Part shown: positions 3,900 to 6,899 of the stretch, one piece after another
Position numbering within the stretch: position 1 is the stretch's first letter
How the letters are laid out: each line of letters begins with the position of its first letter
From: Nanoarchaeota archaeon
GTDB taxonomy: Archaea; EX4484-52; LFW-46
Direction of reading: 5' to 3'
Assembly: GCA_018897155.1 (NCBI GenBank)
Contig: JAHILE010000022.1
Span: forward strand, 1 to 6,899
Length of the DNA: 6,899 nucleotides
The notes under the pieces: model-generated
Told to the model about the DNA's origin: nothing
Seen by the model: the letters and a program-made list of their open reading frames with translations, nothing else
Databases searched by the model: none
Program-made: the position numbers and the translations under genes

Positions 3900-4907
3900 T
3901 TATAATTCATCAATGCGCCATTTTGGAAATATGTCTATTTTTGTCTTTGATTTCTTTTTGAACTCAATAATACCTGTCCATGCGATATTGGCTCCACAAT
4001 CTCCGGCAAATTCGCGCGGAACGTTCCGAAATTCAGCCCTGCGCTCTTTACACATTATCGAGAGCATTTCTGCAAGCCTTTTGTTTGCGGCAACTCCGCC
4101 TGTTAGAAGCAATGTATTTTTCTCAGTATGCGCGAGTGCACGCTCCGTCACTTCCGTAAGCATTGCATATGCAGTTTCCTGAAACGAGAAGCAGATGTCT
4201 TTTAAATCGAACTTTCCTGATTTGAATTTTCGAACAACATCAGTGCAAAGCCCTGAGAATGAGAAATCCATGCCTTTTACAGTGTATGGCAGAGGAATGT
4301 ATTTTCCGCCAACCGCAAGCTTTTCCACTTCGGGACCACCCGGGAAAGGGATGCCTGTTTCTCGCGCGAATTTGTCCACTGCATTTCCGATTGCAATATC
4401 GAGCGTTTCGCCGAAAACGCGGTATTTTCCGCCGCCCCAGCCAATGATTTGAGAGTTTCCGCCAGAGACATAAAGCACAAGCGGGTCGCATGCGCCGGTC
4501 ATTAATTTTCCTATCTCAACATGCGCGAGGCAGTGATTAACTGGAACAAGCGGCTTTTTGATTTTTTCGGAAAGTTTTTTTGCAAAATCCAGGCCTACTG
4601 CAAGGCACGGCGAAATGCCCGGCCCTGCGCTGTATGCGATTATGTCGATGTCAGAAAGCTTGAGCTTTGCATCGTCCAGCGCCTTTTGCAAAATTGCTTC
4701 AGCAACCGCTTTGTGATGGTCGCGCGCCTTTGACGGATGGATGCCTCCGGCTTCGGGGCGGTATGTGTCGCGCGCATTTGAATAAACTTTGCCGTTTACA
4801 ACCGAAGGTTGTAAAGCCGAGAGCGAGCGCGGCGAAGCGACCGGATTGTCGTCGACTATTCCGATGCCGAAAGTATGCGCGGTTGATTCGATGCCAAGAG
4901 AAATCAT
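3900..4907 (-). CDS. kae1: KEOPS complex ATPase Kae1 (tRNA t6A37 synthesis)
   Basis: Kae1 is the catalytic subunit of KEOPS, which transfers the threonylcarbamoyl group to A37 of ANN-decoding tRNAs in the cytoplasm. The 335 residues contain ESTAHTFGIGIV (7-18), NARDTYRPEAGGIHP (44-58), the metal-binding NHCLAH with H125 and H129, YVSGGN with Y146, FGETLDIAIGNAVDKFARE (165-183), GMDFSFSGL (212-220), the nucleotide-binding LLTGGVAANKRL (267-278) and AGDCGANIAW with D303. The expected iron ligands (two His, Tyr, Asp) are therefore present. Two oddities: residues about 22-38 form an insert absent from typical Kae1 (see the repeat at 4794-4844), and the usual GDNGA motif reads GDCGA. The protein stops after KWRIDEL, so it is not fused to the Bud32 kinase as in many archaea, and no bud32 is in view. 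It is transcribed divergently from the gene at 5017. Confidence 0.96.
   Translation of the reverse strand: MISLGIESTAHTFGIGIVDDNPVASPRSLSALQPSVVNGKVYSNARDTYRPEAGGIHPSKARDHHKAVAEAILQKALDDAKLKLSDIDIIAYSAGPGISPCLAVGLDFAKKLSEKIKKPLVPVNHCLAHVEIGKLMTGACDPLVLYVSGGNSQIIGWGGGKYRVFGETLDIAIGNAVDKFARETGIPFPGGPEVEKLAVGGKYIPLPYTVKGMDFSFSGLCTDVVRKFKSGKFDLKDICFSFQETAYAMLTEVTERALAHTEKNTLLLTGGVAANKRLAEMLSIMCKERRAEFRNVPREFAGDCGANIAWTGIIEFKKKSKTKIDIFPKWRIDEL
4794..4844 (-). repeat. In-frame palindromic insert within kae1
   Basis: About 51 bp (17 codons) interrupt the place where Kae1 proteins usually run directly from VDDN to GKVYSNARDTY; here the reading is VDDN, then PVASPRSLSALQPSVVN, then GK. The DNA has two parts. 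A G+C-rich block lies at 4817-4839. A perfect hairpin has arms TTTACAACC (4795-4803) and GGTTGTAAA (4807-4815) around a 3-nt loop. The element is open in the kae1 frame, so the gene appears functional. It may be a mobile palindromic element like those translated inside Rickettsia genes, or a lineage-specific insertion. The boundaries are inferred from the expected Kae1 sequence and could shift by a codon or two. Confidence 0.6.
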
Positions 4908-4936: not shown

Positions 4937-4978
4937 TTCTGTTTGAACTTTTTATTTTGTCTAAAATTTCAATATTGA

Positions 4979-4987
4979 TTTATATAT
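4979..4987 (+). promoter_or_regulatory. TATA box for the unknown gene at 5017
   Basis: TTTATATAT ends 29 nt before ATG 5017, which would put the transcription start within about 10 nt of the ATG. This helps choose ATG 5017 over the upstream in-frame TTG at 4957, because that TTG would lie upstream of this TATA box. Confidence 0.5.
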
Positions 4988-5016
4988 TTCGTAATACACT
5001 ATTTTGCAGTGAGAAA

Positions 5017-5478
5017 ATGGAATATGAAAATATTTATCGTTTAATGCAAAAATTAGATGAGCTGACTAATAAAACGAATGCTCAGAAGTATTTTTCTGAA
5101 GTGATAAAAAGACCGGAATTAGATAATTTAACTAATCAAATTGATGCCCTGAGGTATCTTATTTGTGATGATATAAACCATTTTAAATCTGACGAAATCA
5201 TCAGTATAGATACTTATCCTTCTCCAAAAATAATCGGACGTTTAGAAGAATCATTTATTCCGAAAGATCCTTTAGTATTCGATGAACAACGCGGTTTAGG
5301 AACGCGAATAAATTTTAAACACAATCTTGAACAAGTTTGTTATGATCCCGAGATTAAGCGAGCTCATTTAGTTAATATTGGGTCGTCCAGCGGCATTATA
5401 CGTTATAATTCCAAGATATGCCGTGGAAAAGAGAAAGTGAACGAACAATTAGGATTAGAAGGTTTAGCATTTGAATGA
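5017..5478 (+). CDS. Unknown 153-residue protein with a 22-residue internal repeat
   Basis: The product is not recognised. The first 60 residues are polar and helix-prone and contain two copies of one motif, LDELTNKTNAQKYF (13-26) and LDNLTNQIDALRYL (35-48), with a 22-residue period. The remainder is mixed, with IISIDTYPSPKIIG (61-74), DEQRGLGTRINF (89-100) and LVNIGSSSGIIRY (118-130). There is no signal peptide, membrane span or familiar catalytic motif, so a soluble protein is likely. An upstream in-frame TTG (4957) would add 20 mostly hydrophobic residues but lies before the TATA box, so ATG 5017 is preferred. The gene is clearly richer in A+T than kae1 or nre and uses mostly TTA for leucine, suggesting separate ancestry. 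A small membrane protein gene follows 24 nt downstream and is probably co-transcribed. Confidence 0.7.
   Translation: MEYENIYRLMQKLDELTNKTNAQKYFSEVIKRPELDNLTNQIDALRYLICDDINHFKSDEIISIDTYPSPKIIGRLEESFIPKDPLVFDEQRGLGTRINFKHNLEQVCYDPEIKRAHLVNIGSSSGIIRYNSKICRGKEKVNEQLGLEGLAFE
5053..5160 (+). repeat. Imperfect internal duplication, 66-nt period
   Basis: Segments 5053-5094 and 5119-5160 agree at 30 of 42 positions by direct comparison, and encode two related 14-residue motifs (7 identical residues) spaced 22 residues apart. Similarity at the DNA level suggests an old in-gene duplication rather than convergence. Confidence 0.6.
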
Positions 5479-5784: not shown

Positions 5785-6899
5785 ATGCCTCAAAAATCCT
5801 TTCGTTCCGCTGACGCTCCACTCGAGGTTTTTGAACCCAATAAATCTGTGAATGGTTCAAAATATCAATCATGGGACAATCCGCGCTGCGAGATTCTAAA
5901 AGCCTTAGCAGAGGCAAAGCCCATGAGCCATAAGCTCTGTCTAGAATGCAAGGGCGGAAGGCTCCTATGCGGCAGGGAGTCGTGCCCATTGCTTGCGAAG
6001 ATCCATATCCAAAGCCCTATTGAGCAGACTCTCAAAAAGACAATGTTCGGCCCATCCCCTCCGTCTTTGTTTGTCGGCTGGATGGGATATCCGAATGTTT
6101 TTGTCGGGCCGATGGTTTCACTTGAGCCCGAAAACGCGCAGCATCTGGACAATCCCCGGGAGTGGTACGGCGCGGATTTCAACGAAATAATTCGCATGCG
6201 CTCTTCCCTCGCGCGCTCAAAGACAAAAGAGCATATTAAGTCAAACAGCAGGATGGTAATGGATGTGCAGGAATTGACTCTGTCAAAATACAGCGTTGAT
6301 GTTGAGTTGGAATTCAAAAAGGCGCCGCATTATTCTCTTTCGTTTTCCCCGATTTCCCAGCCTGTCGGACCCACAGGGATACTTGAGAAATTTAAGATTG
6401 CGGGCAATGTCTCGATTCCGCAGAAAGTTGAAAAAGTCGTTTGCGACGATTTAAAATCGGTTGATTCCGCGCGCATGCTTTATGAAAAAAACTTTGATGT
6501 GTATTATATATCAAAGGTTTTATCCGCGGGAATTCTCGGAATCGCGAAAAATCGGAAGTTAACACCCACGAGATGGTCGATTACGGCCACCGATTCAATT
6601 TTGGCTAACGAGTTGATGAAAAAAATCCGCGATTATCCGAAAGTAAATGAATATTTGGTCTATTCAAACACTTATCTTGACAATCATTTCGAGGTGCTGC
6701 TTATGCCCGGAGCATGGTCGTTCGAGCAGTTCGAGGCTTGGGCAGCAAATACTTTGTGGACACTTGCAATGGATTCGCCGACAATAACGCAGGAATCAGA
6801 GGGCTTTGATGGTCGGACAAAATACGCAATAAAAGAAGGCGGCGGATATTATGCAGGACGGTTTGCAGTGTGCGAGCAGCTGGAAAAAATGCGCAGGCA
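5785..6899 (+). CDS. Nre-family archaeal DNA repair protein (3' end beyond window)
   Basis: Nre proteins are archaeal repair factors that work with PCNA, and loss of them in haloarchaea causes sensitivity to DNA crosslinking. The recognisable part begins with a zinc-finger-like LCLECKGGRLLCGRESCP (C52-x2-C55-x6-C62-x4-C67, counted from ATG 5785). It continues with SPPSLFVGWMGYPNVFVGPM, LDNPREWYGADFNEIIRMRSSL, QELTLSKYSVDVELEF and later YYAGRFAVCEQL near the edge; this order is typical of the family. About 371 residues are visible. The C-terminal PCNA-binding motif expected in NreA-type members would lie outside. The start is uncertain: ATG 5785 gives 46 residues before ATG 5923, and family members usually begin close to the zinc finger, so 5923 is a real alternative. 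The extra N-terminus overlaps a repeat-like segment. Confidence 0.88.
   Translation, partial: MPQKSFRSADAPLEVFEPNKSVNGSKYQSWDNPRCEILKALAEAKPMSHKLCLECKGGRLLCGRESCPLLAKIHIQSPIEQTLKKTMFGPSPPSLFVGWMGYPNVFVGPMVSLEPENAQHLDNPREWYGADFNEIIRMRSSLARSKTKEHIKSNSRMVMDVQELTLSKYSVDVELEFKKAPHYSLSFSPISQPVGPTGILEKFKIAGNVSIPQKVEKVVCDDLKSVDSARMLYEKNFDVYYISKVLSAGILGIAKNRKLTPTRWSITATDSILANELMKKIRDYPKVNEYLVYSNTYLDNHFEVLLMPGAWSFEQFEAWAANTLWTLAMDSPTITQESEGFDGRTKYAIKEGGGYYAGRFAVCEQLEKMRR
5803..5862 (+). repeat. Repeat-like segment with 9-bp inverted arms in the 5' part of the nre frame
   Basis: A G+C-rich block at 5803-5827 is followed by arms TTTTGAACC (5829-5837) and GGTTCAAAA (5854-5862) around a 16-nt loop. The arrangement parallels the kae1 insert: G+C-rich block, then a T-run arm ending in AACC, then its complement. 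By hand the two blocks agree at 17 of 25 columns with two gaps, which is suggestive but not conclusive for such biased sequence. The segment is open in the nre frame. Confidence 0.4.

Follow-up and report, generated by a model that had tools for sequence, protein, structure and literature searches.

A 51-bp segment lying in frame within kae1, the gene for the tRNA N6-threonylcarbamoyladenosine synthase subunit, very probably belongs to a dispersed family of palindromic, non-autonomous elements, which would be translated where they land in genes. The DNA analysed here (6,899 nucleotides, hereafter the window) makes up the entire contig C22 in a draft assembly of 1.43 Mb, and the genus is represented by this genome and one other, its sister. 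Among named records, the Kae1 protein comes nearest to uncultured archaeon isolate LFW-46 (83% over the best segment); Nanohalarchaeota and Aenigmatarchaeota are next at about 57–61%, and we infer from Kae1 that the host belongs among the DPANN archaea, its phylum being placed in the same way.

The kae1 gene occupies positions 3900–4907 of the minus strand as a 335-amino acid open reading frame (ORF), without a stop codon even through the insert. The protein aligns along its length with the solved structure 2ivn, which we take to be Pyrococcus Kae1 (E = 5e-104), leaving a gap where the insert sits. In the sister, GACGAC is followed directly by AAAGGAAAAG, whereas here 51 bp stand between GACGAC and AACGGCAAAG, a single clean gap in the alignment, and outside the 17 inserted codons (residues 21–37) the two proteins are 87% identical. 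The insert is likewise absent from all 17 further archaeal Kae1 proteins aligned. Aligning the DNA with the sister places the insert best at 4797–4847 (minus strand), with edges made ambiguous by AA at both ends. An earlier note on this DNA had put it at 4794–4844, which is near, within 3 nt. That note had also reported 17 extra in-frame codons containing a perfect hairpin and a G+C-rich block, both borne out here: the insert has 61% G+C against 48% for kae1, and the G+C-rich block comes after the hairpin. The sister kae1 carries an in-frame TAA (L021:5289–5291), reading LS-stop-KIKK where this genome reads LSEKIKK, which may be either an assembly error, a polymorphism or the mark of a decaying gene.

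Two palindromic parts were recognized in the kae1 copy. The hairpin H2 (4795–4815, minus strand) has 9-bp arms and a 3-nt loop, TTTACAACC-GAA-GGTTGTAAA, with T3/A3 ends; the same hairpin is found in the copy on contig C5, and H2 covaries across copies. The H1 core (4813–4848, minus strand), AATCCGGTCGC...GCTCTCGGCTTT, is palindromic, though imperfectly so, and some of its unpaired bases are conserved; it falls within the match to our covariance model and has compensatory variants among copies. Taken alone, the hairpin is not significant, one with 9-bp arms and a 3–8-nt loop being seen in the window against an average of 0.45 in dinucleotide shuffles, and it is therefore never used here as sole evidence. 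A structure was predicted with AlphaFold2 from the Kae1 alignment at high confidence (mean predicted local distance difference test score (pLDDT) 91.8, most of the model >90). Residues 21–40, between two beta strands, score about 46–51, and the insert is modelled as a disordered loop in a beta-hairpin turn, in keeping with the earlier suggestion of a tolerated surface loop.

The segment recurs genome-wide. All three checks advised in the earlier note (further copies in the genome, Kae1 of relatives, a structural model of the loop) thus favour its reading. A 62-base query from the insert finds a 53-bp copy on contig C5 (89% identical, E = 8.6e-14), together with many partial matches. The repeat pattern was worked out by inspecting 239 kb, and a covariance model (R1) was then built from ten copies; R1 matches the kae1 copy at 4793–4849 with 67.5 bits (E = 3e-14, a value to be read knowing that this copy is one of the ten). 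Because the element recurs, both as the C5 copy and as a covariance-model match, chance is excluded. All copy numbers are lower bounds: R1 has at least 125 matches in its own genome at E ≤ 1 (150 of 1148 candidates scored) and, in a separate run at E ≤ 0.001, at least 94 copies there and at least 104 in the sister. Across 34 genomes sampled from the phylum, all of one order, genomes of another family (f7) hold 0–8 copies each, and elsewhere there is a single marginal match in each of two genomes; beyond the phylum, R1 had no match at E ≤ 0.01 in any of 27 archaeal genomes. The copies in f7 carry the same consensus as those in the genus, and hence the origin of the element probably antedates the genus. 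It is chiefly intergenic: of 24 strong copies, 5 fall within ORFs, which cover 80% of the sampled DNA (p about 1e-9, for stretches picked around matches and ORFs called mechanically). This avoidance fits either a preference in where the element inserts or the selective loss of most copies that land in genes. One and the same array of the element also stands at an edge of four contigs (L103:19896–20000; L111:14214–14318; L114:7515–7619; the first 225 bases of L102), and the assembly probably broke there on account of these repeats.

The repeated unit has the form AAAATC-stem1-GCTTTT-stem2-loop-stem2'-AAAA, with A4/T4 tracts linking its two hairpins. The palindrome of stem 1 is imperfect and retains conserved bases that do not pair; its compensatory variants are CCG/CGG, CCT/AGG and CTG/CAG, while a further type, CAT/AAG, retains one mismatch. 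The sequence of stem 2 varies freely, yet its arms are nearly always complementary. Across 141 distinct copies, 94.2% of paired cells are complementary, where shuffles give 73.1%. Of the 14 pairs, 13 vary on both sides, and covariation scores 0.447, with slid controls reaching 0.084 at most. The alignment was fitted to the structure and these figures lean its way; the effect is large, and is present also in a smaller, hand-picked set. Units occur singly or chained, with mosaics and arrays common, in a manner reminiscent of bacterial interspersed mosaic elements. At L103:4414–4566, three tandem units each begin within the A-tract that closes the previous one. With stems that covary and are free in sequence, the element appears to be recognized by its shape, which is a testable point.

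At least eight copies are placed in frame within conserved genes or at their ends. The sister is empty where this genome has an in-frame copy in seven genes: those for Kae1, a HerA-like ATPase, an FdhA-like molybdopterin oxidoreductase, GatA, KsgA, MetG and a family-2 glycosyltransferase (GT2). At an eighth, a C-terminal copy in UvrA, the sister is consistent with an empty site, less cleanly than at the other seven. Copies were located from simple ORF calls, and sister genes were recovered with a chimeric protein query followed by DNA alignment. Most host gene names are backed by Pfam; UvrA and GatA are presumptive names, given on sequence inspection and general knowledge, with generic Pfam matches only. 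Insertions particular to this genome at the element run from about 14 to 35 residues. Over the eight genes the frame is always open, yet the element occurs in either orientation and in each of the three phases, and therefore no peptide is favoured; what the copies share is a kept frame. The reciprocal case is a HemK-like gene of the sister (G001:C31:12020–12748), which has a mosaic insert that this genome is without. A 112-bp block of that insert is found once more in the sister, with a single difference, and the first 97 bp of the block recur at a third site (G001:C75:14926–15039 and G001:C31:36236–36328). Such near-identical mosaic blocks are the product of recent copying. The earlier proposal of a propagating element that enters genes without breaking their frame was thus largely right, and the pattern named as contrary to it, an insert shared by related Kae1 proteins with no further copies, is the reverse of what we find.

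Some candidate genic copies were set aside. One upstream of the L126 methylthiotransferase precedes the likely true start, and those in the small ORFs L121, L142, L181 and L191 were dropped since these ORFs look spurious; L195 and L203, without a sister match, lie outside the empty-site comparison. The glycosyltransferase (L178:1106–2245) has two more insertions particular to this genome, at residues 30–45 and 298–317, neither matching the element model. Two paralogues on contig C59 (L184:1616–1681 and L194:1558–1623) open with a shared stretch of 66 bp that resembles the element and codes for their N-termini.

The window holds a second copy of the family, which escaped the earlier note. It spans 5793–5864 on the plus strand (R1 41.5 bits, E = 7e-8) and forms codons 3–27 of the nreA frame, the N-terminus of NreA. 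This gene, an archaeal Nre (5785–6897, plus strand; Pfam Nre_N, 3.8e-94, residues 61–326), extends past the contig end. An aligned copy is present in the sister locus L021, so that the nreA insertion predates the split of both species. Nearby, at 5051–5160, there is a 44-nt imperfect direct repeat (73%) within a small ORF (4957–5478).

The insert might instead be an ordinary, lineage-specific expansion of a Kae1 loop by local slippage or duplication, with an incidental hairpin; it does sit in a surface turn, and a 9-bp hairpin by itself is no rarity in this length of DNA. This account is refuted by the dispersed copies, namely the C5 copy (89% over 53 bp) and a covarying family of a hundred, and by clean empty sites in other, unrelated genes, and we consider it scarcely credible. 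Hardly more plausible is an intron or other RNA segment taken out before translation. The insert folds into hairpins, and certain archaeal mRNAs are spliced at bulge-helix-bulge sites; the intragenic copies, however, do not show the freedom from frame constraint of such introns, for at least seven are in frame and free of stops despite occupying three phases, when removal would need neither, and the window matches no family in an Rfam scan.

Two further accounts deserve more weight, although both are unlikely. Were the elements functional chromosomal or RNA signals under selection (a terminator, a stabilizer or a protein-binding site), with the genic copies as spill-over, an intergenic bias and covarying stems would be expected of a structured transcript or binding site. 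Yet the genic sites differ between two congeners, arrays and mosaics are common, and the avoidance of genes is equally predicted by purifying selection against insertions. A little less probable again is a strict family of repetitive extragenic palindromes (REPs), for which a REP-associated tyrosine transposase (RAYT) would be the mover. The elements agree with REPs in their size and palindromic form, in clustering and in having copies within genes (PMC3733652), and both genomes have Y1 (IS200/IS605-like) transposase genes, three here and one in the sister. Against this, the ends are untagged: among 90 copies, the terminal 20 nt contain GTAG in 1 and its complement CTAC in 2, CGTC in 2 and its complement GACG in 4, with consensus ends AAAATC and TTTT...AAAA; nor is any Y1 gene flanked by the element. 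The closest copies to any Y1 gene are roughly 0.9–1 kb off, at one locus only, and a RAYT or IS200 element was rejected as the mover, the Y1 genes having their own, unlike ends.

Returning to a dispersed element translated within its host genes, the family would have spread in the ancestor of the genus and then onward. Genic copies would persist only where the frame was kept, stops were lacking and a tolerant surface loop received them, such that the protein still worked; inserts of this sort are presumably neutral. The element, being non-autonomous, may be mobilized in trans as a folded single strand by some enzyme, or may alternatively spread by replication template switching at hairpins, which would also yield covarying stems without selection. 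Junctions lie mostly within A/T-rich stretches. Set beside a miniature inverted-repeat transposable element (MITE), with its terminal inverted repeats and target-site duplication, the present ends are AAAATC/GATTTT-like; any duplication at Kae1 is of at most 2 bp (AA), and the GatA insert has GATGATT at either side, which is also the element's own end motif. The H2 stem as an inverted copy of the target site was considered and rejected, for it fits the HerA-like gene (7 nt) and fails Kae1, GatA and GT2.

Several points tell against our interpretation. The four Y1 loci, the only transposase loci inspected, provide no mobilizer, since none is flanked by copies and no copy stands at the transposase ends. 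No consistent target-site duplication was seen at the insertion sites. Covariation may stem from the correction of quasi-palindromes and not from selection. That the inserts are translated as extra peptide is read from their frames, the genic survivors keeping frame and lacking stops, and is to that extent a prediction. Finally, the evidence within the genus comes from two genomes, both draft assemblies.

By analogy with Rickettsia, we may be looking at selfish DNA that was copied into genes such as the essential kae1 and would now be part of working proteins. Protein-coding palindromes have so far been reported mainly from Rickettsia and Wolbachia, with one archaeal case. The present data add another archaeal lineage, unrelated to the first, in which occupied and empty sites are cleanly resolved for at least seven conserved genes and the sister has a reciprocal insertion. 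This indicates that essential proteins of small-genome prokaryotes have been lengthened by selfish palindromes time and again. Spurious-looking loops of such origin are to be expected in DPANN gene annotation and protein structure work. More speculatively, and with the balance tilted against it, there could be a class of mobile double hairpins, specific to DPANN, that needs its folded shape and not its stem sequence for propagation. It would move without a dedicated transposase (for example, by hairpin-primed template switching at A/T tracts) and, throughout the lineage, would keep extending essential proteins by short, disordered loops.

Double-hairpin elements are known in Allomyces. Mitochondrial double-hairpin elements and the palindromic repeats of Volvox (PMC2670323) resemble the present family as short, selfish hairpins without proteins of their own; they differ in having organelle hosts, and the Volvox repeats are intergenic and intronic. 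Intragenic REPs are reported in several bacteria, with GTAG/CGTC families in Opitutus terrae and R. conorii (PMC3733652); these too are small, multi-copy palindromes in dimers and clusters, some translated in genes including uvrA, whereas here there is neither an end tag nor a flanking RAYT gene. The parallel drawn in the earlier note was with Rickettsia palindromic elements (Ogata et al. 2000, 2002; reviewed in PMC2229807 and PMC10969869). It holds for behaviour, both being multi-copy palindromes that occupy intergenic DNA as well as conserved genes, there in frame, in a small-genome host; in Rickettsia, 19 genic insertions of protein-coding palindromes are recorded, and one of the products, guanylate kinase, has been shown to be active (PMC2229807, PMC10969869). 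It is not supported for membership, the CGTC tetranucleotide reported at one end of Rickettsia elements (PMC3733652) being absent. The host is of another domain, the Rickettsia elements are 105–150 bp compared with about 50 bp here (80–130 bp when chained), and the present unit is a double hairpin with variable, covarying stems, and is read in all three phases. Among archaea, palindromic elements with coding potential, within protein genes, were described in Methanocaldococcus jannaschii by Suyama, Lathe and Bork 2005, as far as the account in PMC2229807 goes; the host lineage is unrelated, and the likeness is one of description. The papers that could be searched hold no earlier description of the present family, which, lacking also the GTAG/CGTC tags, is therefore classed as a new family of a kind already known. 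It is not the first archaeal case, because the M. jannaschii elements precede it.
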